Assembly: GCA_003140215.1 (NCBI GenBank)
Contig: PLJL01000001.1
Coordinates: 267,283-331,282 of the forward strand
Reading direction: 5' to 3'
DNA from: Vulcanimicrobiota bacterium
GTDB taxonomy: Bacteria > Vulcanimicrobiota > Vulcanimicrobiia > Vulcanimicrobiales > Vulcanimicrobiaceae
DNA length: 64,000 nt
The position numbers were made by a program, and so were the translations under genes. The notes below the pieces were generated by a model, which was not told the origin of the DNA, searched no databases, and saw only the letters and a list, made by a program, of their open reading frames with translations. Shown here in pieces: positions 1 through 14,214 of this stretch; the stretch's first letter is position 1; each line of letters opens with the position of its first letter.

Positions 1-384
1 ATCGAGGTCGTCGAGATCGGCAAGCAGCTGCTGATGACGCGCGGTTCGCTGACGACGTTTTCGATCGCCAACGACATAGCGAAGTACTTCGCGATCCTGC
101 CGGCGATGTTTGCGGCTACCTACCCGGCGATGGACGCGCTCAACGTGATGCGGCTCGCGACCCATCAGAGTGCCATCCTCTCGGCGATCATCTTCAACGC
201 GCTGATCATCGTCGCGCTCATCCCGCTGGCCTTGCGCGGCGTTCCGTACCGTCCGCGCGGCGCCGATGCCGTGCTGCGCGAGAACGTCCTGATCTACGGC
301 CTGGGCGGGATCATCGTGCCGTTCATCGGGATCAAGGCGATCGATCTGATCCTGGTCGGACTCCATCTCACGGGAGCGCACTGA
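1..384 (+). CDS. kdpB: Potassium-transporting ATPase subunit B, C-terminal fragment (partial)
   Basis: This is the 3' end of kdpB, cut by the window edge. KdpB is the P-type ATPase subunit that drives K+ uptake through the KdpFABC complex in the inner membrane. The visible 127 residues hold the closing part of the P-type fold: the [11 protein letters not shown] helix and the following membrane segments, ending in GLHLTGAH. The phosphorylation site and nucleotide-binding domain lie upstream of the window. The TGA stop overlaps the ATG of kdpC (TGATG), as expected of one operon. kdpA must be outside the window. Confidence is high because the tail is strongly conserved and kdpC follows. Confidence 0.95.
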
Positions 385-1004
385 TGTCGACTGTTCAGAC
401 CCCCGAGACCCGCGAGGGGACGCTGCGTCACATCGTCACCTCGGTGCTGTATACCGTCGTCTCCGTGGTCGCGCTCGGACTGATCTATCCGCTCGTGATC
501 TGGGGGATCGGCACGGCGTTGTTCCACCACCAGGCGCAAGGCTCGCTCGTCTTCGACCAGAGCGGCAAGCTGATCGGTTCGGAGCTGGTCGGGCAGAACT
601 GGACCAAGCCCCAGTACTTCGGGGGCCGTCCGTCGGCCGCCGGCAAGGGCTACGATCCGACGTCGACCGGTGGAACGAACTTCGGCCCGACCAGCAAGAA
701 GCTCATCGACGGCACGCGCAGCACGATCGCGGCGCTGCGCAAGGCCAATCCGGATGCGACCGGCCCGGTGCCGATGGACCTGGTCACTTCGAGCGCGAGC
801 GGGATCGATCCCGACATCTCGCCGGAGGGTGCGTACTACCAGGTGCCGCGCGTCGCGAAAGCGCGTGGCGTCTCGATCGAGCGCCTGCGCAGCCTCGTCG
901 CCGCGCACGTCATCCCGCGCCAGTTCGGGCTGCTGGGTGAGCCGCACGTCAACGTCTTCGAACTGAACCGCGCGCTCGACGCGCAAGGAGCCCTAAGCAC
1001 GTGA
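384..1004 (+). CDS. kdpC: Potassium-transporting ATPase subunit C
   Basis: KdpC, 206 residues, is the single-span accessory subunit of the KdpFABC K+ pump. There is one N-terminal membrane helix (about residues 18-48) followed by a periplasmic domain with the family features QNWTKPQYFGGRPSA, the SGIDPDISPEGA motif and a C-terminal VNVFELNRAL. Length is normal for the family. The start overlaps the kdpB stop and the stop overlaps the GTG of the next gene, so all three genes are probably translated from one message. Confidence 0.97.
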   Translation: MSTVQTPETREGTLRHIVTSVLYTVVSVVALGLIYPLVIWGIGTALFHHQAQGSLVFDQSGKLIGSELVGQNWTKPQYFGGRPSAAGKGYDPTSTGGTNFGPTSKKLIDGTRSTIAALRKANPDATGPVPMDLVTSSASGIDPDISPEGAYYQVPRVAKARGVSIERLRSLVAAHVIPRQFGLLGEPHVNVFELNRALDAQGALST

Positions 1005-1861
1005 TTCGTCCCTCGACGGCGATGGTCGCCGCGGCCCTGGTTTCGCTCATCCCGCTCACCGTGACCGCGCAGACCGTGCCCGCACCGGCGCCCACCGCAT
1101 CGCCGACCCCGGCGCCGAATCCGATCGGACCGGCGCTGGGCAACAACGACCCGTGCACGTCGATCTCCGCGATCGTCACCCGGCCGTCCGTGACGAACTC
1201 CGTGTGCACCGTCCGCCCCAACCACGTCGAGATCGAGACCGGCTATCTCAACACGACCACCCCCGGGACCGGGAACACCGTGACGTACCCGCAGACGCTG
1301 ATCCGCGTGGGCACGAAGATTCCGGCGCTCGAGTTCCAGGTGTCGCCCCCGCAGCTCGTTCGCTCGAGCGCCGGCGGCTCGCCGGCGACGGTCGGCTCGA
1401 GCGACGTCGGCGCCGGGCTCAAGTACGTCTTCGGCTACACCGCGAAGTTCAATTACGGCGGCCAGGTCTTCTTCACCGTGCCGACCGGCACGAACGGGAC
1501 GTCCGCGAACGGTTCGACGGCGGTGTACGCGCTCAACGCCGGCTACACGCTCTCGCCGGTGTTCTCGGTCGCGACGACGCTGCAATCGCAGTCGCTGACC
1601 AACGGCACGCAGCGCTGGTCCTCGTTCGTCCCGTCGTTCGTCGTGAGCGCGACGCTGCCCAACTCGACGGGGCTCTTCACCGAGATCGCGCAGTTCTCGC
1701 TGGCCAACGGCCCGGGGACGCCGACCCGCACCCAGTACATCTACGGCCTCTACCACGACCTCGGTCCACGCTTGCAGCTCGACGCCTCGGCGAGCACGTC
1801 GCCGACCGTCTCGACCGGCAAGTATCATGGGGTCGGCTTCGGTTTGAGCTATTACCTCTAA
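1001..1861 (+). CDS. Secreted outer-membrane barrel-like protein linked to kdp
   Basis: A 286-residue exported protein. It has a signal peptide (about residues 1-23, cleaved near TAQTVPAP), a Pro/Ala/Thr-rich linker, then a C-terminal two thirds of alternating short beta strands (for example FNYGGQVFFTVPTG, YALNAGYTLSPVFSV) ending in GVGFGLSYYL. This is the look of a small outer-membrane beta-barrel of the transporter or MetA-degradation type. Two Cys (CTSIS, CTVRP) near residues 51-67 could form a disulfide. The GTG start overlaps the kdpC stop (GTGA), so it is probably part of the Kdp operon, which is unusual. A role in passing K+ or sensing envelope state is only a guess. The sequence ends four bases into the stop region of the opposite gene (convergent). 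Confidence 0.7.
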   Translation: MIRPSTAMVAAALVSLIPLTVTAQTVPAPAPTASPTPAPNPIGPALGNNDPCTSISAIVTRPSVTNSVCTVRPNHVEIETGYLNTTTPGTGNTVTYPQTLIRVGTKIPALEFQVSPPQLVRSSAGGSPATVGSSDVGAGLKYVFGYTAKFNYGGQVFFTVPTGTNGTSANGSTAVYALNAGYTLSPVFSVATTLQSQSLTNGTQRWSSFVPSFVVSATLPNSTGLFTEIAQFSLANGPGTPTRTQYIYGLYHDLGPRLQLDASASTSPTVSTGKYHGVGFGLSYYL

Positions 1862-3951
1862 ACCGAAACCTCGTGCGGCGCGAGGACGAGCATCTCGCGC
1901 GCTCCGGCGGCAAGCAGCCGCACCGCGAACGACCGCTTCCCGAACCAGCCGCGCCGCCGGCGCGGGGACTCTACCGCGACGACATCCCCATCGGACAGCA
2001 TCTGGGCCACGCAAACGGCCGGGTCGGGGGCAACGTCGGCCAGGAAGCTCGCTTTCGCGGTGCCGGCCGCGCGGGCCAGCACGTCGACGATCGCGCGCAG
2101 CTCGTCGTCGTCGCGTGAGGTCACGACGACGACGCGCAGGTCCACGTCGAGCCGGCGCGCGAGCCGGCCCACGCGTCCGATCAACGCGGCGTCGCGTGCG
2201 CGCGGCGCGACGCCCAGGACGATGCGCGCGAACGGCCGTTCGCGGCGCCGTTCCGACCGGGCCCGCAGGATCTCGCGCACGGTCAGCTCGCGCAACGCCG
2301 CCAGGTTCTCGGTGCGGAAAAAGTTTTGCAGAGCCGTCTCGACGCGCTCGGCCGGATAGATCTTCCCTTCGCGCAGCCGCTGCCGGAGCACGTCGGGCGT
2401 GACGTCGATGAAGACGACCTCGTCGGCGAGTTCGAGCACGCTGTCGGGGAGCGTCTCGCGAACCCGCGTCCCGGTCAGCCGTTGGACGGCGTCGCCGACG
2501 CCCTCGAAGTGCTGCACGTTGAGCGTCGTGATGACGCTGACGCCGCTGCGCAAGACGGCGATCACGTCGTCGTAGCGCTTCGCGCGCGCGCCGGCGCCTT
2601 CGTTGGTGTGCGCGAGCTCGTCAATCAAGGCGACCTTGGGGTGTCGCACCAGGAGGGTCTCCAGATCGATCTCGCCGTTCGCCAATCGCGGAATCTGCTC
2701 GATCCCCTCGAGCAGCGCCGCCGTTTCGGCGCGACCGTGCGTCTCGACCAATGCCGCAACCACGTCGATGCCTTCCTCGATGAGCTGGTGGGCCCGGTCG
2801 AGCATCGCGTACGTCTTTCCGCTTCCCGCCACCGCACCCAAGTAGATGGTCAGCGTGCCGTAACCGATGCGCAGCCGGTCACCCAGCGCCGCGGTATAGG
2901 GATGGCGCACGGCTTCGTACGCCCGCGGCAGCGTGTTTCGCAGGGGATCGACGACGAGCAGGTCGCGGTCGAGCGGTTGCGTCAGGATTCGGCCGGCCAA
3001 TGCGCCGAACGGTACGATCACGACCGAGGCGCGCACTGCGCGCAGGTCGCCGCCCGCCAACCCCGCGGGGAGCGGGATCGCGCCGCCGTCGACCCGAGCC
3101 GCGGCCTCGGCGAAGTGGTGCACGTCGGCGGCGTCGACCGCGGTGCACTCCAGAGCTAGATCGAGCGCGTCGGCGAAAGCCGCCGCCCGGCGCAGGAACG
3201 GCTCGTGGTCGCCGATGCCGGCGACCACGGCGAGTGCGATGGAGACCTTGCTCGGTGCGACGACCGGAATGGTGAGATCGTCCACGACGCGCAAGAGCAG
3301 CTCGCGCATCATGCTCAGATTCTTGGGCGCAAAGACCCCTGCGGCGGCGCGTTCGACGTCCTCATCGCGCACGATGCGGCCGGTGCGCAGCCGCGATTCG
3401 AGTATCGAGGGGGCGACGTCAAGAGCGATCACGCGATCGGCGGCACGCAGGAATGCTACCGGAACGAGCTCGCGGACCGGGTAGCCGATGATGCGCTCGG
3501 CGACCGGCGCCACCGTGTCGAGGTGCATCACGTTGAACGCCCCGAGCACCGATTTTCCCGCGTCACGCAGGGCCTGCGCATCCTGCCAGCGCTTCGCGTG
3601 CGCGGCGCCGGGCGGGTTCGCGTGCGCGAGCTCGTCCAAAACGATCGTCTCGAAGTCACTCGCCAGAGCGGCGTCGAGATCGAAGTCCTCGACCGTCGTC
3701 TCGGCGAGCGGGTAGCGCCGCGGCGGAATGCGCGGCAGCCCGGCGGCGAGCGCTTCGAGCTGCGGCCGGTTCTTGGTTTCGATCCATCCGATCGCTACCC
3801 GGCGCCCGGCCTGCGCTTCGCGCTGCGCGTCGCTCAGCAGACGATGCGTCTTCCCGGCGCCCGGCGCGCCGGCGAGGTAAATCGTCAGCCGCGGCGTGAG
3901 CCCCAGCTCGGCCAGCACCGCGGAGGCGTCCGACCGCCGATCGTCGCGCAT
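1858..3951 (-). CDS. Tandem KdpD-N/USP cytosolic sensor protein (no kinase domain)
   Basis: This 697-residue protein contains two successive copies of the KdpD sensor unit and no histidine kinase. Unit 1 has a Walker A GAPGAGKT (residues 28-35) and DELAHANPPGAAHAKRWQD, followed by a USP-like segment. Unit 2 has GAVAGSGKTYAML (near 370), DELAHTNEGAGARAKRYDD and TTLNVQHFEG, followed by a second USP-like segment to the C-terminus. In ordinary KdpD one such unit is fused to membrane helices and a kinase. No membrane helix is visible here, so the protein should be cytosolic. I chose the ATG at 3951, because upstream residues of the open frame are non-homologous shadow sequence over the divergent kinase gene. 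It is divergent from that kinase with 45 bases between starts, and convergent with the kdp operon. It probably supplies the sensing half of a split KdpD. Confidence 0.88.
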   Translation of the reverse strand: MRDDRRSDASAVLAELGLTPRLTIYLAGAPGAGKTHRLLSDAQREAQAGRRVAIGWIETKNRPQLEALAAGLPRIPPRRYPLAETTVEDFDLDAALASDFETIVLDELAHANPPGAAHAKRWQDAQALRDAGKSVLGAFNVMHLDTVAPVAERIIGYPVRELVPVAFLRAADRVIALDVAPSILESRLRTGRIVRDEDVERAAAGVFAPKNLSMMRELLLRVVDDLTIPVVAPSKVSIALAVVAGIGDHEPFLRRAAAFADALDLALECTAVDAADVHHFAEAAARVDGGAIPLPAGLAGGDLRAVRASVVIVPFGALAGRILTQPLDRDLLVVDPLRNTLPRAYEAVRHPYTAALGDRLRIGYGTLTIYLGAVAGSGKTYAMLDRAHQLIEEGIDVVAALVETHGRAETAALLEGIEQIPRLANGEIDLETLLVRHPKVALIDELAHTNEGAGARAKRYDDVIAVLRSGVSVITTLNVQHFEGVGDAVQRLTGTRVRETLPDSVLELADEVVFIDVTPDVLRQRLREGKIYPAERVETALQNFFRTENLAALRELTVREILRARSERRRERPFARIVLGVAPRARDAALIGRVGRLARRLDVDLRVVVVTSRDDDELRAIVDVLARAAGTAKASFLADVAPDPAVCVAQMLSDGDVVAVESPRRRRGWFGKRSFAVRLLAAGAREMLVLAPHEVSV

Positions 3952-3996
3952 CACGACGACGTTCGCAGGGCGGCCGGAAGGCTCCCCGAAGGCGCA
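3952..3996. promoter_or_regulatory. Divergent intergenic region between KdpD-like sensor and kinase
   Basis: Only 45 bases separate the two divergent start codons. Any promoters for the sensor gene and the kinase gene must overlap here or lie inside the opposite coding sequence. No clear -35/-10 pair is visible. The shared region suggests co-regulation of the two halves of the split sensor kinase. Confidence 0.4.
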
Positions 3997-5535
3997 ATGG
4001 TGCGTTCGCGAGCCGTCGCGGTCACCGCCTTCGCGCTCTTGGCGGCGGTCTTCGTCATCGACGTGTTGACGCCGCAAGCGCTGGTCGTCGCGATCTTGCT
4101 CGACGTTCCGATCGTCCTGGCGGCACTCACCCGCAGCCGCCGGCTCACCGCGTGGCTGGTGATCGCGGCGCTCGCGGCGGATGGCGCCGCGGCCAGCATC
4201 AACGCCGCTCACGACGGCTACCGCTGGGAGCCGATCGGCGTCGGCGACCGGCTTCTTTCGATGCTCTCGATCGTGCTCGTCGGATACCTCAGCACCGCCG
4301 TGCAAGAACGCGCGGAGCGCGTCGGGCGCCTCGCGGCGCAAGAGGCGCGGGCCCGCCGCGAAGCCACGCTGTCGGCGGCGGCAGACCGCATTCGGGGTTC
4401 ACTCTCTCCCGAGGTCGTCATCCGTGCCATCGTTCGCGAGGCACCGTCGGCGCTCGAAGCGGTCGCGACGTACTGGTATCCGTCGGGTGCCGGCGGCGAG
4501 GTCCTGGCTTCGCGCGGCGGTGCCGCCGAGGTCGAGGTCGTCGACGAACGGCCGTCGTCCGAGATCGTTTCGCTGGCGCAACGCGTCCTCGACGATCGTG
4601 CCGTCGCGGTGGTGCGCGCCGTCGATCCGGTCGGAAGATTCGTGCTCGATCGTCTGCGTGCGCGCAGCGCGCTCGCCATCCCGCTCGCGGAGCACGGCCG
4701 CACCTTCGGCGTGCTCATCGCGACCTCGGACGCGGAAGCGCCGGACGACGCGGTGGTCTCGACGGCCCGCGCCTATGCCACGCTGGCGGTTAACGCGCTA
4801 GGCCAAGCGCGGCTTTTCGGCGAGCTCGCCGAGCGCAACGCGGCGCTGAGCGAACGTCAAGACGTCATTCGCGATCTGGTCTACGCGCTCTCGCACGATT
4901 TGCGCACGCCGCTCGCGGCGCTCTCGATGACGCTGCGCCAAGCCTCGGACGGCGCGTTCGGCGCGCTCCCCGAGCGCTATGCGAGCGTGTTGCGCGAAAG
5001 CCTCGTTTCGATCGACGACCTGCGCCGGCTCGCCGAGACGCTGCTTCTCGTGGCGCGCATCGAATCGGGCGACCGGCGCCCGCAGTCCGAGCCGGTCGAT
5101 CTCGCCGCGGTGGTGAACGACATCGCCGTCGAGCTGCAGGCGTTGGCGCAGTCGCGCGGCATCGCGCTGGTCATCGCGGCAGGCACGGTACCCGCGGTGC
5201 GTGCCTCGCGCGGCGACCTCAAACGCGCGATCGCCAACCTGGTCGCCAACGCGTTGCAGCACACGCCCCAGGGAGGATCGGTGACCGTCGGCGTGGCCTC
5301 GACCGGCGACCGAGTCACGGTGACCGTCAGCGACGACGGCTACGGGATCGACGCGCGCATGCGCTCCGCGCTGTTCGAACGCTTCTCGACCGCGTCGCGC
5401 GCCGGCGGCGGAACGGGGTTGGGCCTCTACATCGTCCGCCGCATCGCCGAAGAGAGCGACGGCACGGTGCGCTACGCGCCGCGCGAGCCGCGCGGGTCGG
5501 AGTTCACGCTCGCGCTGCCGAAGGCACGCTCGTGA
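3997..5535 (+). CDS. Membrane sensor histidine kinase (KdpD kinase-half-like)
   Basis: A 512-residue kinase. Several hydrophobic segments in residues 1-100 resemble the membrane block of KdpD. A GAF-like region follows (about 125-275), then a HisKA domain with H-box ALSHDLRTPL (His about 300), then HATPase_c with N-box NLVANALQH, DDGYGID and GTGLGLYIV. The start at the ATG at 3997 is chosen because hydrophobic sequence begins immediately; the open frame extends much further upstream only as antisense shadow of the sensor gene. The stop overlaps the GTG of the response regulator (GTGA). Together with the divergent tandem sensor it looks like a KdpD divided into two polypeptides; this pairing is inferred from context. 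Confidence 0.88.
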   Translation: MVRSRAVAVTAFALLAAVFVIDVLTPQALVVAILLDVPIVLAALTRSRRLTAWLVIAALAADGAAASINAAHDGYRWEPIGVGDRLLSMLSIVLVGYLSTAVQERAERVGRLAAQEARARREATLSAAADRIRGSLSPEVVIRAIVREAPSALEAVATYWYPSGAGGEVLASRGGAAEVEVVDERPSSEIVSLAQRVLDDRAVAVVRAVDPVGRFVLDRLRARSALAIPLAEHGRTFGVLIATSDAEAPDDAVVSTARAYATLAVNALGQARLFGELAERNAALSERQDVIRDLVYALSHDLRTPLAALSMTLRQASDGAFGALPERYASVLRESLVSIDDLRRLAETLLLVARIESGDRRPQSEPVDLAAVVNDIAVELQALAQSRGIALVIAAGTVPAVRASRGDLKRAIANLVANALQHTPQGGSVTVGVASTGDRVTVTVSDDGYGIDARMRSALFERFSTASRAGGGTGLGLYIVRRIAEESDGTVRYAPREPRGSEFTLALPKARS

Positions 5536-6164
5536 GCCTGCGGGTCGTCTTGGTCGAGGATCACGCGCTCGTTCGCGCGGGGCTGCGCGCGTCGCTCGAA
5601 GCCGCGGGGATCGACGTCGTCGCCGAGGCGCAGGACGGCGTCAGCGGCTTCGACACGATCGTGCGGACGCAGCCGGACGTTGCGGTCGTCGATCTCGGCC
5701 TGCCCGGAAAGGACGGGATCGCGCTGACCCGCGAGCTCAAGGCTCGCGCGAACGCACCGCGCATCGTGATCCTCACGATGCACGAGCTCGGAGATGAGGT
5801 CCTCGCTGCGATCGCCGCCGGCGCCGAAGCCTACTGCGTCAAGTCGTCCGATCCGGCGGTGGTCATCGACGCCGTCCGCATCGTCGCGGCCGGCGGCGCG
5901 TACTTCGATCCGAAGATCGCGCACGTCGTATTGCGCCGCCTCGGGGGCTCCGCCGCGCAGCCCGAGCCGTCGCCGCTGTCGGCGCGCGAGACCGAGATCC
6001 TCACCCTGATCGCGGGCGGCACCGGCAACGCCGAGATCGCGGAGCAGCTTCACATCAGCCTGGGCACGGTGAAAGGTCACGTCGCCGACATCTTGGCCAA
6101 GCTCTCCGCTTCCGACCGCGCGCACGCCGCCGTCACCGCCTACCGCCGCGGCTTAATCCGTTAA
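5532..6164 (+). CDS. NarL/LuxR-family response regulator
   Basis: A 210-residue two-domain regulator. The receiver domain has the acidic pair in VLVEDH (9-10), phospho-acceptor D54 in VVDLGLPGKDG, Thr in ILTMHE, and the conserved Lys in YCVKSS. The C-terminal LuxR-type helix-turn-helix contains LSARETEILTLIAGG and NAEIAEQLHISLGTVKGHVADILAKL. It is translationally coupled to the kinase (GTGA overlap), so that kinase is the likely partner. KdpE regulators are normally OmpR-type with a winged helix, so a NarL-type output next to kdp genes is unusual. Probable targets are the nearby kdp genes, but no binding site is identified. Confidence 0.93.
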   Translation: MSLRVVLVEDHALVRAGLRASLEAAGIDVVAEAQDGVSGFDTIVRTQPDVAVVDLGLPGKDGIALTRELKARANAPRIVILTMHELGDEVLAAIAAGAEAYCVKSSDPAVVIDAVRIVAAGGAYFDPKIAHVVLRRLGGSAAQPEPSPLSARETEILTLIAGGTGNAEIAEQLHISLGTVKGHVADILAKLSASDRAHAAVTAYRRGLIR

Positions 6165-6253: not shown

Positions 6254-9200
6254 CTATTTGATCACAACAACCGAGGTTGCGCTGCGGCCGAACTCGTCGG
6301 GACGGCCGACGAGGTGCGCGTTCGCCCCCGGCCAAGCGAACGTCCCCGGCGTGACGGTGCGCGCCAGATAGTGCAGCCGATAGACGCCGGCGTCGAGTTG
6401 ATCGGCGTACGCTTCGATGCGGTCGGCGCGAATCTGCTGATCGCCGATCGACCACGACGCCGCCTGCAGCTGGAGCGCCGGCGAGGTGGTCGCGAACGAC
6501 GTGTCGACGGCTTCTAGTCCGGCCGGAAGCGGGTCGGTGATGACGACGCGCTCGACCGGGTGGTCGCTGACGATCTGCAGCTCGATGTCGTAGACGTGCG
6601 CGGCGGGCAGCGCGAGCGCCGCGCCCGGCGCGGCGAGCCCCATGGTGCCCAGCACGGCGGTGGTGTTCGCCTCGCGGATGACGCGCGTGACGCGCAGGCC
6701 GGCCAGGCGGCCTGGCGCGGCGCCGCTGAGGCGATACGTGTACGTCACGGCGTAGTGCAGCGTTCCGGAGCCGTTCTTCGCCAGGGCGAGCCCGCTACGG
6801 CCGCCGGGCAGATCGCGCATCGCGATGCGGGTGCTGCGCTGCGGCGCGGCAGCGCCGCTGAACGTCTCGCGGGCGACGGACTTGCCGGCCAGCGTCGCCG
6901 TCGCGGTGAAGCTTGCGGGGTGCTCGCGTTGCGCCACCTCGACGATCGCACCGAGCGCCGCGGCGTTCTCGCAGGCACAGCCGAACGAACCGTTGCGGCG
7001 CATGTCGAGCAGCGAGCGCGTGAGCCGGTCGAGCGTCTCGCCGTCGGCATTGCGCACCAGCTCGAGGCGCAACGCTTCCGCCTGCGCCACGACCCGGTCG
7101 GCGAGCCAGCTGTAGCGACCCGGCAGGTTCACCGCGCCGCCGCGACCGGTGAGGTAGAGTTGGTCGTCGATCGACTTGGTGAGCGCCGCAGCTTGCACGC
7201 CATACCCGGCCGCCGGCGTCATGAGGCGCGCCAACCGCGCGCGATCGGCAAAGGAGAGCGCGTCGCCCTGTGCCGCGATGTCGCTCAAGAAGGTCGTACG
7301 GCGAACGCCGGTCGCCGCGAGCCCATCGAGCGCGTAGAGACGCAACTGGGCCTTGCAGAGATCCTGGCGACACCATTTCGCGCGCGCCGTCGGGTCGGCG
7401 AGCACGCTCGCCGCGTAGCGCTGGGCGCCGCTGAGCATCGCTGAGTCGACGGGGATCCCGGCCTCGCCGGCGCGCCCCAGCGCGGCCAATGCGGGCAACG
7501 AATCCCAGGGATCCGACGTGTCGGAGCGCCAGTACGGGGCGAAGCCGCCGTCCGCGCGCTGCAGATCGTGCAGGATCGCCAGCTCGAGCAGCGCGCGGTC
7601 GCGCGCCGTGCGCGCATCGGCGCCGGTGCGCTTGGCGAGCAGCACGAGGTCGCCCGCGATCGACAGGCGGCTCGCCGCGGAGATCGCCAGCCGCTCGTCA
7701 CCCTTGAGCGCGTCGTTCGCCGCCACGGTGACCTCGGGGATCAACGACGAGGCGAGCGCAATCTCGACTCCGCCCGCATCGCGCGGGGTACCGGAAGCGA
7801 CGTCGAGCCCGATCGCGGCGCGATCGCCGGTGGTGCCGGTCTGCACGACGGATTCCGTGACGTCGGTGTCGCGGACGGGAACGGGGATCGCGAACGCATC
7901 GCCCCGCCCTGCCCCGCGCACGCGCATCGTCGCGGTCGCGACGCCGGTTGCGCTCGCAACCACCGCGAAGCGGTAGGCTTTGGTGATGCGGTCGAGCGGC
8001 GCATCGAGCGACGTGGTTGCGGTGGGCTTTCCGTTGACGAGAAACGCCAACGGGCCCGTCAGCGACGCATCGATGTGCACCGTTCCGCCGGCGCCGGTTC
8101 CGTTCGTCACCGAAACGCCCGCGTCGAAGCGGTCGCCGGGCCGCGCGAACTGCGGCACGACCGGGTTCGCGACGAGCGGTTTGGTCGTGCGGAACGTCGA
8201 CTCGCCGTTGCCGAAGCGGCCGTCGGCGGTCGCGCCGACGACCATGACGCGCCAGGTGGTGAGATCGTCGGGCAGGGTGAAGCTCGCGCTGGCATTCCCT
8301 TGCGCGTCGGTGCGCAGCGCGCCGGCGAAGTAGGCCAGCGCCTCGAACTTGCGACGCACGCGCGGATCGGCTTCTTCTCCCGACAGGCCGCCGCCGAAGC
8401 CCCAACCCTTCTCGAGCGGCCGGCGCAGGGTGTTGAGCACCAGGGCCGCGCGGTTGTCGGCGTAGCGCGTCGAGATCGGTTGCTCGGCGTACACCGTTTT
8501 GACCAGGTCCGGCGGCCGGTATCCGGTCAGCCGCAACACCGCGTCGTTGACCACCATCAAGGTCGCTTGCGCTTGCAGCGGACGATGCTGCGCGTCGGCC
8601 AAATGCACGCGCACGGTTTGCCGGGTGCCCGGCGCGAGCACCGCGGATGCACCCCTCGCCGTCGCCGTGATGTACTTCCCGTCGAGTGCGACGCCGAAGG
8701 CGGCGAACCCGGTGCGCGCGAGCGCATTGCCGCCGTCGGCGAGCTCTTTGGACGGCGGCGCGCCGCGCCGTACGGCGAAGGCCTCGACGGCGGCGTTGGG
8801 CAGCATCTCGGGCGTGACGCGGAAGCGCACGGTCGGCGCGGCGCTGCTGGTGCGTTGCGTGGTCTCCCAGAGTACGCCGTGCCGGACGACCGCCAGGTGC
8901 ACCTCCGCGTGCGGGAAGGGTGACTGCACCAGCACCGTCGCCGTGTCGCCGGGCTTGTAGGTGGGTTTGTCGAGCTTGAGCCGCAGCGAGTTCGGATCGC
9001 GCCCGAACCACACCGTTTCGCCGCTGCCGCCGACGAAGACTTCGGCATCGGTCTCGCCGGCGTCATCGGCGGCGCCCGCAACGTTGGCGCGCAACCGATA
9101 CGAACCGGGCTTGCGGGGCGTGAGCGCGACGCTCACCGGCGCGTCAGCGCTCGTCGCGTCGGCGCTCGCCACGGTCGCGTAGGTGACGGTTGTCTGGGCT

Positions 9201-11920
9201 TGCTCGGCGCCTTCGACGATCTGCGTCGCGTCCGCGTAGCTCGCGAGCTGCAACTCGACGTGGATCTTGGTGCCCGACCGCGCCGCACCACTCGGGTCGG
9301 TCGCGATCGCGCTGACCGCGAGCGGCGTGCCGGCGATCCCGACGTCGTCGGTCTTGACGCCCACCAGCGTGTCGGACGGCAGCGCGGTGAACGACTTCGA
9401 GTCGGCGACCGCGATGTTCGAAGCGTCGGTCGTCTCCGCGTCGACTTGATACGTCATCGGGAACGGCAGGTCGGCTGCGACCGGAACGCTGACGCTGCTT
9501 CTGCCGTCGGCATCGACGGTGACCGTCGACTCGAGGACGTCGGTCGACGCGTCGGGCGCTTGTTGGGGCCAGAACCAATGGCGGCCGAAGGTGAACGACT
9601 CGCGGCGCTTGGGTGTGAAGTCGGCCGGCGAGCGCGTCACGGTGAACTTCGTGGACGCACCGGCGAGCGGCGCACCGAAAAGGTACGCGTTCACGGCACG
9701 CGCCGCGACGACCGCACTGCGCGGGGCGACCTCGTGATCGAGCGCGAGATCGACCTTGAAGTTGGGGGGCTTGAACTCGGCGACCCGAAAGTCACCATCG
9801 ATCGTCTCGCCGTTGCCCGCCGACGCGCGCAGCGAGTAATATCCCAGCGCGGCGTTCTTGGGCAGCGCGACGGGGATCGAGAAGCTGCCGAACGCGTCGA
9901 GCGAACGGCGTCCCAAGTCACGGCTCTCGCCGCTGGGAAGCTTCAATGTGAGCGCGTACGACGGCGCGGTGCCGTGGCGGAGCACGCCGTCGACGAGGAA
10001 CCAGCCGACGGCGGTCAACTGGGCGGTTTCGCCGGGCTGATAGAGCGCGCGGTCCGAGTAGATGATCCCGCGCGCGAGCGGCTTCGCCGACGACCAGCCG
10101 TTGAAGAAGTCGCCGGCGTAGGCACCGCTCGACGAGTCGGTCCGGACGTAGGTCCAGTCGCCGCCGCGGCGCACGATCGTCACGAACGAGGGCGCGCTGT
10201 CCTCGCCCTTGTCGTAGGCCGCGCAGCGCCCGAACGCCGAACGCGGGAACGCGGCGACGCCCGCGGCGTCGGTGGTGGCCGTGGCGCAAAGGGCCGGCGC
10301 CGACTTTGTCTCCGCGTCGGCTTGCGACGGGTAGACCTCGACGCTCGCGCCGGCGACGGGCGTGCCGTCGGCGATGCGGTGAACGCGCACCGAGCCGCCG
10401 TCGGGGAACCATTGCGCGAACGCACCCAGATCGGTCAGTTGGACGACGCCGGACGACACGAACCGCGCATCCTTTCCGTACGTCGCCGTCACCCCGTAGC
10501 CCAGCACGCCGCCCGGCGCGCCGAGCTTGGCGCGCAGCGGGACCTCGACGGTGCGCTCGACGTTGCGTGCCGCGTGCACGTCGAACGGCGGCCACGCCGC
10601 CGAGGGCGGCAGCACGTCGCCGCGGTCGGTGTCACCGGACAGGTCGGGATACTGCACCACGTCGGCCGGGCGCAGCGGGCGGAAAATCGCGCGCACATTG
10701 CCCGGTGCGTTCACCGCGACCACGTTGAGGCGCACGTCGCGTGACGCCGGGAACACATTCGTCCCGCTCGGCGCCCACACGTCGGGCGCCAGGTCTCCGG
10801 TGCGGAAGGTCGCGCGCACCGGCGCGCCGAGGCGTTGGCCGTAGGTGTCGCGCAGATCGGCGCCGATCGTGACGGCGTAGCCGGTATTGGGTGCCAGCAG
10901 CGACGCGTTGATCCCGACGTCCTTGTACGTCGCGGCAAACGGCGTCGTCCCGCGCGGCGCCGGCGGGTCCAACGCCAGCGCGCCGAGCGACTTCGGATCG
11001 ATCGGCGTGCTGAAGATCAGCCGCGGGTTGCCGTTCGCGAAGCGCCCGCCGCTCACCAGACCGACGCGCACGAAGCGCAGCTCGCCCGGCGTGACGAAGG
11101 AGCCCGTGAAGGCCACAGCGCTCGGGAGATTGCCGTCGCGCGCGACGAGGCCCGGTTCGATCGCGATGTCGTAACGGGCGCCTTTGGCCAACGTACCGTC
11201 CGGAACGAGCACGTAGCGCCAAGCCTGCTGCGACGGATCGTACTCCTGGTTCGGCGGCGGCGTCGCTCCGGGCGAGGCGCTCGCCTTGGCGGTATCGGGC
11301 GGCACGACCATCCGAACCGCCGGACCGCCCTCGCCGTGACGGCGCAGCGAGGAGTGCGCCTCCAGCGAGGCGCGATCGAGCGCGACGTTGGACGTGAACG
11401 TGATCTTCGGCGCCAGATCGAGCATCTGATCGTGCTCGTACCGGCCGGGCAAATCGTCGAGCTTGATCGGATCGGTTTGGAACGTCCACGCCAGGTCGTC
11501 GGCGAGCGTGCGACCGCCCCGGTCGCGCAAGCCTTTGGCGACGGTAACGCGGACGCGGGTCGCCGCGGGCCACGCGCGGTCGGCTTCGAAACCGACCATG
11601 CGCGGGGTCAGAAAGCGGAAGTGCCCCGCCAACGCCGGCGCGATCGAGAAATGGGCCAGCAACGCGGTCTCGTCGGGCGACTCCAGTCGCTCGAGGGGGA
11701 TCAGGTCGGCGCTGAAGACGACGCGGATCTGCGCCAGCGTGCCGACGTCGCCGACCGGAGCGACGGCAGCGATCGGGGCCTGCATTTGCGGCGCCGGCAG
11801 CGGCAAAACGGCCGGCAGCGGCTCGCGTTTCGGCGTCGGAGCGTGCGGAGCACAACCGGCCGCGAAGAGGGCGGCGGCCAGCGTGGCGAAGGCTGTTGCG
11901 CGGCGCGCATGCCTAATCAC
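6254..11920 (-). CDS. Alpha-2-macroglobulin family lipoprotein lacking the thioester motif
   Basis: A very large (1888 residues) envelope protein. A lipoprotein signal peptide ends in the lipobox LFAAGC with Cys23 as acylation site, followed by a Pro-rich linker. Many beta-sandwich MG domains follow, including the A2M-N region with YSDRALYQPGETAQ and the A2M region around LPDDLTTWRVMVVGATADG. An alpha-helical thioester-type domain follows (SAASRLSIAGDLVLLAKRTG, QRADGGFAPYW), then receptor-binding-like beta sequence. Bacterial A2Ms trap proteases in the periplasm. The CxEQ thioester motif expected before the helical domain is absent: the aligned segment reads LKGDERLAISAASR (about residue 1400-1415). 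It is divergent from pbpC, the classic partner of thioester-containing A2Ms. Start GTG/ATG choice is supported by the signal peptide. Confidence 0.93.
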   Translation of the reverse strand: MIRHARRATAFATLAAALFAAGCAPHAPTPKREPLPAVLPLPAPQMQAPIAAVAPVGDVGTLAQIRVVFSADLIPLERLESPDETALLAHFSIAPALAGHFRFLTPRMVGFEADRAWPAATRVRVTVAKGLRDRGGRTLADDLAWTFQTDPIKLDDLPGRYEHDQMLDLAPKITFTSNVALDRASLEAHSSLRRHGEGGPAVRMVVPPDTAKASASPGATPPPNQEYDPSQQAWRYVLVPDGTLAKGARYDIAIEPGLVARDGNLPSAVAFTGSFVTPGELRFVRVGLVSGGRFANGNPRLIFSTPIDPKSLGALALDPPAPRGTTPFAATYKDVGINASLLAPNTGYAVTIGADLRDTYGQRLGAPVRATFRTGDLAPDVWAPSGTNVFPASRDVRLNVVAVNAPGNVRAIFRPLRPADVVQYPDLSGDTDRGDVLPPSAAWPPFDVHAARNVERTVEVPLRAKLGAPGGVLGYGVTATYGKDARFVSSGVVQLTDLGAFAQWFPDGGSVRVHRIADGTPVAGASVEVYPSQADAETKSAPALCATATTDAAGVAAFPRSAFGRCAAYDKGEDSAPSFVTIVRRGGDWTYVRTDSSSGAYAGDFFNGWSSAKPLARGIIYSDRALYQPGETAQLTAVGWFLVDGVLRHGTAPSYALTLKLPSGESRDLGRRSLDAFGSFSIPVALPKNAALGYYSLRASAGNGETIDGDFRVAEFKPPNFKVDLALDHEVAPRSAVVAARAVNAYLFGAPLAGASTKFTVTRSPADFTPKRRESFTFGRHWFWPQQAPDASTDVLESTVTVDADGRSSVSVPVAADLPFPMTYQVDAETTDASNIAVADSKSFTALPSDTLVGVKTDDVGIAGTPLAVSAIATDPSGAARSGTKIHVELQLASYADATQIVEGAEQAQTTVTYATVASADATSADAPVSVALTPRKPGSYRLRANVAGAADDAGETDAEVFVGGSGETVWFGRDPNSLRLKLDKPTYKPGDTATVLVQSPFPHAEVHLAVVRHGVLWETTQRTSSAAPTVRFRVTPEMLPNAAVEAFAVRRGAPPSKELADGGNALARTGFAAFGVALDGKYITATARGASAVLAPGTRQTVRVHLADAQHRPLQAQATLMVVNDAVLRLTGYRPPDLVKTVYAEQPISTRYADNRAALVLNTLRRPLEKGWGFGGGLSGEEADPRVRRKFEALAYFAGALRTDAQGNASASFTLPDDLTTWRVMVVGATADGRFGNGESTFRTTKPLVANPVVPQFARPGDRFDAGVSVTNGTGAGGTVHIDASLTGPLAFLVNGKPTATTSLDAPLDRITKAYRFAVVASATGVATATMRVRGAGRGDAFAIPVPVRDTDVTESVVQTGTTGDRAAIGLDVASGTPRDAGGVEIALASSLIPEVTVAANDALKGDERLAISAASRLSIAGDLVLLAKRTGADARTARDRALLELAILHDLQRADGGFAPYWRSDTSDPWDSLPALAALGRAGEAGIPVDSAMLSGAQRYAASVLADPTARAKWCRQDLCKAQLRLYALDGLAATGVRRTTFLSDIAAQGDALSFADRARLARLMTPAAGYGVQAAALTKSIDDQLYLTGRGGAVNLPGRYSWLADRVVAQAEALRLELVRNADGETLDRLTRSLLDMRRNGSFGCACENAAALGAIVEVAQREHPASFTATATLAGKSVARETFSGAAAPQRSTRIAMRDLPGGRSGLALAKNGSGTLHYAVTYTYRLSGAAPGRLAGLRVTRVIREANTTAVLGTMGLAAPGAALALPAAHVYDIELQIVSDHPVERVVITDPLPAGLEAVDTSFATTSPALQLQAASWSIGDQQIRADRIEAYADQLDAGVYRLHYLARTVTPGTFAWPGANAHLVGRPDEFGRSATSVVVIK

Positions 11921-11991: not shown

Positions 11992-14214
11992 ATGATCGGC
12001 TTCGAAGCCGACCGCGTGCGGCTCGCGGCGGCCGGCATCGCGCTCGTCTTGAGTGCGCTCGCGATCGCGAACCGCCCGATCGGCCCGCGCGCCTTCGCCG
12101 GCGGGGCCAACGCGCTCGTCATCGAGGATCGCTCCGGCGTCGAGCTGGGCACCGTCCTCGCGCGCGATACCGAGCACGCCGTGCGCGTCCCGCTCGCGCA
12201 GGTCTCACCACGCTTTCTGGCGGCGATCGTCGCCGCGGAGGACGCGCGTTTCGCAGCGCACGACGGCGTCGATCCCCTCGCATTAGCGCGCGCGGCGTGG
12301 CAGCTCGCGCGCACCGGGCACGTGGTCAGCGGCGGCTCGACGATCACCATGCAGCTGGCCCGGCTGCGGTTCGGTTTGCCGCGAACGCCCGTGGGCAAGC
12401 TCGAGGAACTGCTGCTCGCGCGCCGCATCGAGGCCGGAACGCCGAAGGCCGCGATCCTCGAAGCCTACGTCAACCGAGTGCCGATGGGCGGTGACCTCGT
12501 CGGCGTGGAGGCCGGAGCCCGCACGTACTTCGGCGCGCCTGCGCGCGACCTCGACCTCGCGCACGCCGCGTTCTTGGCCGCGCTGCCCAACGATCCGGTA
12601 CGGCTCGATCCGTACGCGCATCGCGACGCACTCGAAGCGCGGCGCAGGCTGGTGCTCGCACGAATGGTCGCTGCCGGTGCGGTCGCCGCCGACGAGGCGG
12701 CGCGCGCAGCGGCGGAGCGGGTCGACGTGCAGCCGCGCAACGACGGGATCGCCGGCGCGGCGCAACTGCTGTTCCGGCTCGCCGGGAGCGCCGCGCCCAG
12801 CGCGACACGCTTGCGCACCACGATCGACGGCGAGCTGCAAGCCTTCGCCGAGAACGCGACGCAGCAGGTCGTAAGCGGGTTGAACGACCGCGGCGTGCGG
12901 GACGGGGCGGCGATCGTGATCGACAACCGCGACGGCGCGATCCGCGCGTACGTCGGATCGGCGGACTACTTCGCGCGCACCGGGGCCGGGAAGAACGACG
13001 GCGTCGCCGCGCTGCGCCAACCGGGGTCGACGCTCAAGCCGTTCCTGTACGAGCTCGCCTTCGAGCGGCGCGTGGTGCGCCCGACGACGATCTTGGCCGA
13101 CGTGCCGACCACCTACGCCCTGCCGGGGCTGCGCTCGTACAGTCCCGGCGACTACAGCGAGCGGTTCGCGGGACCGGTGCGTCCGCGTCTCGCACTCGCC
13201 GACTCGCTCAACGTCCCGGCGGTGCGCGTGCTCAGCGAGGTCGGCGTCGCGCCGTTCCTCGAGCGGTTGCGCGCGCTAGGATTCGCGCATCTCACGCGCG
13301 ACGCCGACCACTACGGGCTCGGGCTGGCGTTGGGCGACGGCGAGGTGTCGCTCGAGGAGCTGGCCGGGGCCTACGCGGCCGTCGCCAACGCGGGGCGGCG
13401 CGTGCGAGTGCACGCGCTGGCCGACCCTGCGGGCGCGCCGCCGGCCGCCGACCGCGTCGGCGCTGCGTCGGAATGGGCACTGGTCACCGACATCTTGGCC
13501 GATGCGCACGCCCGGGCGCGTGCGTTCGGCGTCGCGTCGCTGTTGCGCACACCGTTCGCGAGCGCGGTGAAGACCGGCACGTCGTCGGACTTTCGCGACA
13601 CCTGGACGATCGGTTTCACTCGCGACTATACCGTCGGAACGTGGGTCGGCAACTTCGACGGAGCGCCGATGCAGCGGGTCAGCGGCGTGACCGGCGCGGC
13701 TCCGCTGTGGAACCGGATCGTGCGGCACCTAGCCGAGCGCGACCCGCCGCCGGCCTTCGCGGCGCCGCAAGGGTATGCGCGCCGGCCGATGTGTGCGACG
13801 ACCGGGGTGCGGCCGACGCGCGATTGTCACAGCATCGTCGGCGAATGGCTCGATGCGCGCGACCTCGTCGCCTGGCAAGCTCCGCCGGCGCCGTTGGGCC
13901 GCACCTACGATGCTTGGCTCGCGGCCCAGCCGCCGCACGCTCACGAAGCGTTGCGCATCGTCGCGCCGCGCGACGGTGATGTCTACGTCGCCGCCGCCGG
14001 TGCGCGGATCGCGGTCGTTGCGCGCGGTACGCAACGTCCGACGTGGGAGCTCAACGGCCGCGCGCTCGCGGCCCGCGACGCGCGTTGGACGCTGCCGCTG
14101 GCGCGCGGCCGCTGGACGCTGCGTGCGCACGACGCCGGGCGCGTCGATGCCGTCACGTTCACCGTCGGCGACCCGCTGCCGCGCACCCACCGCGCGGGGT
14201 TCACGATTCGCTAG
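11992..14214 (+). CDS. pbpC: Penicillin-binding protein 1C, bifunctional peptidoglycan synthase
   Basis: A 740-residue class A PBP of the 1C type. It has an N-terminal membrane anchor (about 9-25), then a GT51 glycosyltransferase domain with EDARFAAHDGVDP and GGSTITMQLARLRFG. The transpeptidase domain carries RQPGSTLKPF (SxxK), a SLN motif in LADSLNVPAVR and KTGTSSDFRDTW. A C-terminal BiPBP_C-like domain (about 640-740) includes RRPMCATTG. All active-site motifs are intact. It is divergent from the alpha-2-macroglobulin gene with 71 bases between them, the pairing seen in E. coli yfhM-pbpC. It probably repairs peptidoglycan at sites of damage, with A2M guarding the periplasm; that coupling is knowledge of the family rather than visible here. 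Confidence 0.95.
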   Translation: MIGFEADRVRLAAAGIALVLSALAIANRPIGPRAFAGGANALVIEDRSGVELGTVLARDTEHAVRVPLAQVSPRFLAAIVAAEDARFAAHDGVDPLALARAAWQLARTGHVVSGGSTITMQLARLRFGLPRTPVGKLEELLLARRIEAGTPKAAILEAYVNRVPMGGDLVGVEAGARTYFGAPARDLDLAHAAFLAALPNDPVRLDPYAHRDALEARRRLVLARMVAAGAVAADEAARAAAERVDVQPRNDGIAGAAQLLFRLAGSAAPSATRLRTTIDGELQAFAENATQQVVSGLNDRGVRDGAAIVIDNRDGAIRAYVGSADYFARTGAGKNDGVAALRQPGSTLKPFLYELAFERRVVRPTTILADVPTTYALPGLRSYSPGDYSERFAGPVRPRLALADSLNVPAVRVLSEVGVAPFLERLRALGFAHLTRDADHYGLGLALGDGEVSLEELAGAYAAVANAGRRVRVHALADPAGAPPAADRVGAASEWALVTDILADAHARARAFGVASLLRTPFASAVKTGTSSDFRDTWTIGFTRDYTVGTWVGNFDGAPMQRVSGVTGAAPLWNRIVRHLAERDPPPAFAAPQGYARRPMCATTGVRPTRDCHSIVGEWLDARDLVAWQAPPAPLGRTYDAWLAAQPPHAHEALRIVAPRDGDVYVAAAGARIAVVARGTQRPTWELNGRALAARDARWTLPLARGRWTLRAHDAGRVDAVTFTVGDPLPRTHRAGFTIR

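Follow-up and report, generated by a model that had tools for sequence, protein, structure and literature searches.

The window analysed here, a stretch of 64,000 nucleotides from contig PLJL01000001.1 of a Vulcanimicrobiota bacterium (assembly GCA_003140215.1), raises the question of what KdpD does when its N-terminal part is doubled and its histidine kinase part is absent from the chain. Beside the genes of the potassium pump KdpFABC, a minus-strand gene at 1858-3951 encodes a tandem, kinase-less KdpD of 697 residues in the order KdpD-N, USP-like, KdpD-N, USP-like, as defined by its translation, two PF02702 matches and an AlphaFold2 (AF2) model. The protein is probably a stand-alone post-translational off-switch of KdpFABC, with its first unit as a diverged partner and with transcription left to a divergently encoded histidine kinase and NarL-type regulator. 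Its architecture, conservation, residue patterns and linkage to kdp and to the histidine kinase-response regulator pair can be read from the sequence itself. Taken with doubled forms in two other phyla that also carry one altered copy, it suggests a two-part on/off switch for the potassium pump, hitherto unstudied.

Both KdpD-N units, encoded on the minus strand, exceed the curated PF02702 cut-off of 26.1 bits. Unit 1 (3283-3891; 199.6 bits) has the Walker A sequence GAPGAGKTH, in which K34/T35 are followed by H36 where E. coli KdpD has W39, and retains D106/E107 and R187. Unit 2 (2269-2859, residues ~365-561; 255.4 bits) has GAVAGSGKTY, including K379/T380/Y381, together with D444/E445 and R525, and provides the sole PDB sequence match of the protein at E-values up to 0.01, to 2r8r (8e-52). 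Walker B reads DELAH in both units. The original prediction was accurate as to coordinates and as to the two KdpD-N units, both halves being strong matches to the family.

The regions following the two domains, also on the minus strand (approximate limits 2917-3270, residues ~228-345, a short version, and 1861-2256, residues ~566-697), have no PF00582 match in a Pfam scan, and the USP-like identity proposed for them is retained on structural prediction. The AF2 model, built from 37 sequences (pLDDT 82.2, pTM 0.55), has Foldseek matches to USP structures, including tandem USPs and, weakly (E 0.001), the USP domain of KdpD bound to cyclic di-AMP (c-di-AMP), 7ji4 (TM-score 0.69 to the target, the aligned USP-like region not being specified). 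The same model matches the KdpD N-terminal structure 2r8r with a TM-score of 0.89-0.90 to the target; a BFVD fold search returned low TM-score matches only, and PADLOC gave nothing for the tandem (P0001) or for P0002. In the Pfam scan no HisKA or HATPase family was found on the chain at E-values up to 0.1, and the transmembrane (TM), GAF and DHp/CA parts of a full-length KdpD are not on it. The claim that the chain also lacks a membrane helix is likely to hold: hydropathy flags residues 226-247 and 305-323, but in the model these form short strands and helices within the first USP-like part.

The likely function of such a chain is suggested by published work on single-unit forms. According to PMC11018627, KdpD-N is an atypical serine kinase (ASK) that inactivates KdpFABC by phosphorylating S162 of KdpB, which requires Walker A, D109, E110 and W39/R190, and the short KdpD/Usp of Deinococcus geothermalis also phosphorylates KdpB and is stimulated by c-di-AMP. 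Because KdpD-N has a serine kinase activity of its own and need not act through a histidine kinase, what had been described as a kinase-less sensor is more aptly regarded as a serine kinase that stands alone and inhibits the pump. The presumed target motif TGESAPV is kept in 50 of 56 distinct KdpB open reading frames (ORFs) from tandem loci, including that of the window's genome, the other six being cut by the end of the stretch. From the published KdpD-N activity and this retention, the tandem most likely serves to inhibit the pump through unit 2.

By analogy with the single KdpD-N/USP proteins, unit 2, a canonical KdpD serine kinase, would act on KdpB once there is enough potassium, phosphorylating its TGES serine. 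Unit 1, with Walker A and B kept and its adenine pocket changed, would most likely bind nucleotide as a partner and keep unit 2 in its inactive or its active state, the two forming an asymmetric built-in dimer. Transcription of kdp would be left to the divergent GAF-HisKA membrane kinase and the NarL-type regulator, in place of the KdpD kinase half and KdpE. Of this scheme, the regulatory role of unit 1, the input signal and the promoter controlled by the regulator are what we infer.

The inequality of the two units is apparent from residues mapped on E. coli KdpD in 70 distinct unit-1 and 68 distinct unit-2 domain sequences. In unit 2, K37 is present in 67 of 68 sequences and D109, E110 and R190 in all 68, with Tyr (61), Phe (3) or Met (4) at position 39. 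Unit 1 retains K37 (68/68, two gaps), D109 (70/70), E110 (69/70) and R190 (70/70) but has Arg (52), His (12) or Tyr (4) at position 39, that is Arg/His in 64 of 68 (two gaps), as well as Arg for A40 in 69 of 70 (one gap) and Lys for H63 in 69 of 70. In the window itself these changes appear as H36, R37 and K60, their unit 2 counterparts being Y381, A382 and H405, so that the adenine pair W39/R190 has its equivalent in unit 2 (Y381/R525) and not in unit 1 (H36/R187). Each of the 36 single KdpD-N domains used for comparison has Glu at 110 and an aromatic residue, Tyr or Phe, at 39.

Unit 1 is also the more divergent copy overall. Mean identity to E. coli KdpD-N is ~39%, against ~51% for unit 2, unit 1 is the less conserved in 96.8% of Eremiobacterota protein pairs, and its USP-like part is shorter and without the conserved late segment. 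Decay or chance as the origin of unit 1 was ruled out by its near-invariant motif residues over 70 sequences. As the units are not equivalent in residues or conservation, the earlier suggestion that duplicated units give cooperativity is too simple.

These residue patterns bear on two other explanations. One, which we regard as improbable, has two active serine kinases on the chain that differ in substrate or in nucleotide, unit 1 having a target other than KdpB S162. It would account for the retention of K37, D109, E110 and R190 in unit 1 at a mean mutual identity of ~60% in the window's lineage, and for the consistent alteration of its base pocket and ETH motif. Against it, no more than 2 of 17 Bacillota and 2 of 14 Chloroflexota tandems have the catalytic Glu in the diverged unit, so this residue seems dispensable there, although the Asp found instead in 12 of the 14 is a mild change and might still work. 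We know of no second substrate for the KdpD serine kinase. The other, very improbable, explanation likens the chain to ArsA, as two fused P-loop units that would switch conformation through their two nucleotide sites and would not be a protein kinase at all: Foldseek does list tandem ArsA ATPases next after KdpD, but this match is weak (TM-scores 0.10-0.13), unit 2 keeps the residues needed for KdpB phosphorylation and E. coli KdpD-N has no ATPase activity (PMC11018627).

The tandem is conserved in the lineage of the window. The closest named relatives are Candidatus Eremiobacterota metagenome-assembled genomes (MAGs), and two relatives are labelled ‘Rhodospirillales’. Among the loci fetched, 89 ORFs cover at least 520 tandem residues in one alignment, 71 after removal of repeats, of which 70 come from Eremiobacterota and adjoining ‘bacterium’ MAGs and one from Neobacillus pocheonensis. 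PF02702 matches occur in 110 of 149 Eremiobacterota genomes (105 over the family cut-off), and none of the 436 plasmid records with a match has a place covering 80% of the tandem. In one Eremiobacterota genome (G107, which contains L169) PF02702 matches four times, and frames long enough for a tandem lie on two contigs.

On its 5' side, the tandem gene is separated by a 45-base gap between start codons (3952-3996; 7-126 bases in the relatives measured) from two divergent plus-strand genes. The first (3997-5535) encodes a membrane histidine kinase of 512 residues with a hydrophobic N terminus, GAF (22.8 bits), HisKA (42.0 bits, SHDLRTPL) and HATPase_c (96.3 bits); hydropathy flags residues 1-48 and 50-68, and ~79-104 in several relatives, which we read as four membrane helices. 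The second (5532-6164), overlapping the first by four bases, encodes a NarL/LuxR-type response regulator of 210 residues with Response_reg and GerE domains, and not an OmpR-type KdpE. The divergent pair originally predicted recurs in the relatives: both genes are divergent to the tandem in 52 of the 56 loci (of 70) with a readable 5' side of at least 2.3 kb, the other 14 being too short, and the arrangement is missing from L047, L054, L087 and L117. On the 3' side, readable in 53 loci and too short in 17, there is a convergent KdpC no more than 1.5 kb away in 35 loci, a KdpC at some other place in the stretch in 10 and none in eight.

Co-occurrence was read by hand in 55 genomes of the window's class, with the kinase N-terminal part at E-values up to 1e-20 and contig-broken copies included. 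Tandem, kinase and KdpA are all present in 36 genomes, all absent in 10 and mixed in nine. Counted as both, tandem only, partner only and neither, the tandem co-occurs with KdpA as 37/4/2/12 (Fisher 3e-7) and with the kinase as 37/4/3/11 (Fisher 3e-6), both values ignoring kinship.

This association and the adjacent divergent genes favour the reading originally proposed, which we consider unlikely: that the tandem acts purely as a sensor in the cytosol and, by binding the neighbouring membrane kinase in trans, restores a two-protein KdpD-like kinase. The kinase has the domain order of KdpD, and its GAF domain aligns with that of KdpD (hhalign probability 94.8, E 5e-8, one comparison); its membrane part gave no alignment to that of KdpD and has no Pfam family listed. 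The demonstrated enzymatic role of KdpD-N itself speaks against a pure sensor, as do genomes G026 and G027, which keep the tandem without a match to the kinase N-terminal part. In Bacillota, 11 of 17 tandem loci have no histidine kinase-like match in the fetched stretch; L173, L206 and L207 adjoin a KdpD-type histidine kinase and KdpE, L171 and L180 have a weak histidine kinase match at the stretch edge, and in L132 the tandem is followed by a full-length KdpD.

The off-switch reading, in which unit 2 inhibits the pump and unit 1 is its partner, faces difficulties of its own. The activity of the tandem is a predicted one. The AF2 model predicts the domains well but, at a pTM of 0.55, not the packing of the units, and unit 1, which retains the catalytic Asp/Glu, may itself be catalytic and not regulatory. 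Aligned with E. coli KdpB, the kdpB of the window's genome falls into two frames that meet at L033:7986-7999, immediately upstream of where the window begins, which could mean a broken pump or a misassembly in this MAG; kdpB is a single ORF in most relatives and is in two pieces also in L046. Lastly, four genomes (G006, G026, G027 and G042) have a tandem without a KdpA match, possibly reflecting another target or incomplete assemblies. In favour of the off-switch, however, unit 2 is altered at a key residue in two of the three of these that were read: it has lost the Walker A lysine in G027, and the DELAH histidine (H113) is Arg in G026, while unit 2 looks intact in G042.

Tandems with one altered unit also occur outside the window's class. 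With no more than two candidate stretches scored in each genome, the counts from surveys of 398 Bacillota and 400 Chloroflexota genomes are lower bounds. In Bacillota, 56 of 398 genomes match and at least eight have a full tandem; in the family of Neobacillus, KdpD exceeds the cut-off in 24 of 151 genomes, 11 of the 24 having two units in one frame. The Bacillota unit 1 keeps the Walker A Lys, Asp109 and Arg190 in 17 of 17 and is the less conserved unit in 98.5% of protein pairs, while Glu110 is invariant in unit 2 (17/17); in one genome (G625) a very degenerate first unit is fused to a canonical one. The Neobacillus pocheonensis locus carries a second KdpD of 901 residues with one lower-scoring KdpD-N (L132:11132-13837), ~0.8 kb after the tandem; an AF2 model of a Neobacillus tandem (pLDDT 75.5, pTM 0.42) was left unused.

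In Chloroflexota the order of the units is reversed. Matches occur in 119 of 400 genomes, and of 20 stretches picked because they had two matches or a frame long enough for a tandem, 14 contain fused tandems with the canonical unit first. Here unit 1 has Glu110 in 14 of 14, whereas unit 2 is the less conserved in 97.4% of protein pairs, with the Walker A Lys in five of 14 and an aromatic residue at position 39 in none. Six of the 14 (L188-L193) share the window's layout of convergent kdpABC and divergent kinase but have a KdpE-type regulator. In L194-L197 the canonical and degenerate units are separate overlapping or adjacent genes, possibly a pre-fusion state; L198 has two adjacent canonical genes, and the architecture of L199 is ambiguous. 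In other Eremiobacterota families, three tandems from two genomes have the D-E pair in one unit only (unit 1 in L161 and L163, unit 2 in L162).

In phylogenetic trees the diverged units fall into three separate supported groups, one for Bacillota, one for Chloroflexota and one for the window's class. Bacillota units 1 and 2 group together at 94/83 in a first tree and only inside a wider, open group in a second; a single clade of all diverged units was not rejected (p-AU 0.328, then 0.113, with long branches), nor was one clade of Eremiobacterota units 1 and 2 (p-AU 0.42). The opposite unit order and the unfused pairs of Chloroflexota argue for at least two independent fusions. We put forward, tentatively and with rather less assurance than the off-switch itself, that KdpD serine kinases in at least three phyla occur as asymmetric tandems, in which a canonical kinase is joined to a diverged copy, often lacking its catalytic Glu and in Chloroflexota often the Walker A lysine too, that serves as its allosteric nucleotide-sensing partner (in Eremiobacterota with the Glu kept and the base pocket re-shaped), produced by two or more independent fusions. 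As part of the same tentative proposal, such a tandem could be viewed as the bacterial Walker-type counterpart of kinase-pseudokinase pairs. JAK JH2-JH1 is a tandem kinase plus pseudokinase protein, and the likeness lies in one catalytic and one diverged nucleotide-binding copy in tandem; the folds are unrelated, and in the window's lineage neither unit has lost a catalytic residue, since the D-E pair, including the catalytic Glu, stands in both.

The tandem is the new part of this system. The sensing half does lie on a chain apart from the kinase half, as had been proposed, but split KdpD is already in print, mostly as KdpD/Usp and TM/GAF/DHpCA on separate chains and most commonly in Acidobacteriota and Chloroflexota (PMC11018627). 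The window resembles these in having the ASK and histidine kinase on separate genes, and differs in that its ASK chain is a tandem, its regulator is NarL-type rather than OmpR-type KdpE, and the membrane part of its histidine kinase is not recognised as that of KdpD. With the short KdpD/Usp of D. geothermalis and the NCBIfam family NF038185 (KdpD_non_kinase), the tandem shares KdpD-N plus USP, the absence of a histidine kinase and, in unit 2, the residues for KdpB phosphorylation. It departs from them in its two units per chain, the changed base pocket of unit 1 and its NF038185 score (406.2 bits, below the cut-off of 550); of three other tandems, Bacillota L203 and L173 pass (834 and 850 bits) and Chloroflexota L183 fails (468). 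Its position beside kdpABC is shared with the short KdpD of D. radiodurans. KdpD-N, the USP fold and the presumed target pump are common to E. coli KdpDE, whereas the window chain has no histidine kinase, a second KdpD-N unit and no KdpE next door. Nor was an orthodox KdpD with a normal KdpE found elsewhere: a search of the genome (3.88 Mb, 86.7% complete) gave no PF02702 match besides these two units and no second full-length KdpD, and the best match to E. coli KdpE, at 41% identity, is on another contig.

The main text of PMC11018627, supplementary data aside, does not mention a duplicated KdpD, NarL or LuxR, and no description of a tandem KdpD was found in literature listings on KdpD or Eremiobacterota kdp, a coverage that leaves out most subscription papers; for Eremiobacterota and kdp the listings gave PMC10655421, on a synthetic community. 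As the control of the serine kinase activity is still to be further characterised (PMC11018627), tandems with the needed residues in one copy and specific ones lost from the other are ready-made tests of that control, and the one-intact, one-changed pattern recurs in three phyla. The results further suggest that short KdpDs are not merely the ‘non-kinase’ sensors of their NCBIfam name, and that in Eremiobacterota the transcriptional arm has been handed to a NarL-type regulator.

As to c-di-AMP, proposed earlier as a possible input, the evidence is divided. The USP motif SXS-X20-FTAXY, taken from S. aureus KdpD (PMC4686210), is absent from both window units in a pattern search, and also from the short KdpDs of D. 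radiodurans, Allomeiothermus and Trichormus that were compared, so that its absence is not decisive. DAC was found in 54 of 60 relatives, with two matches in the window's own genome (134.8 and a weak 33.1 bits), while four tandem genomes (G041, G042, G043 and G051; 96-97% complete) gave no DAC match. Input from c-di-AMP is thus neither shown nor excluded.

At its start the window contains the 3' end of kdpB (1-384, plus strand) and kdpC (384-1004, plus strand; PF02669, 224.1 bits), the latter belonging to the pump that is presumed to be the target; the larger part of kdpB, together with kdpA and kdpF, is found immediately beyond the window edge. Some relatives have, beside the kdp locus, another KdpA-like gene that is more divergent (L040:7155-8846, L037:12757-14457; 48-49% to E. 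coli KdpA). Between kdpC and the tandem gene, a plus-strand ORF of 286 residues (1001-1861), with a hydrophobic N terminus by hydropathy and no Pfam or NCBIfam match, has similar ORFs in the stretches around 20 of the 70 tandem loci and is possibly an envelope protein tied to potassium uptake.

A palindrome upstream of kdpA, TCGCGTA-N7-TACGCGA, was considered as a site for the regulator and ruled out. At least 10 of its 14 positions are matched in 42 of 47 regions, against 30% of random stretches, and the core GCGTA-N7-TACGC occurs in nine of 44 regions, but its place and frame fit the kdpF coding sequence. A Y-L-x-Y-A pattern, which we take to be the KdpF motif, is found in 50 of 57 regions upstream of kdpA. 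No operator is therefore claimed for the NarL-type regulator. The best 5-base palindrome upstream of kdpF occurs in eight of 54 regions (at most three in 20 crude shuffles) and that in the divergent gap in 11 of 58 (at most three in shuffles), both counts being inflated by near relatives.

Beyond the regulator gene, a very large alpha-2-macroglobulin-like ORF (6254-11920, minus strand) adjoins a penicillin-binding-protein-1C-like ORF (11992-14214, plus strand), both recognised by eye; genes of these two kinds form an ordinary pairing.

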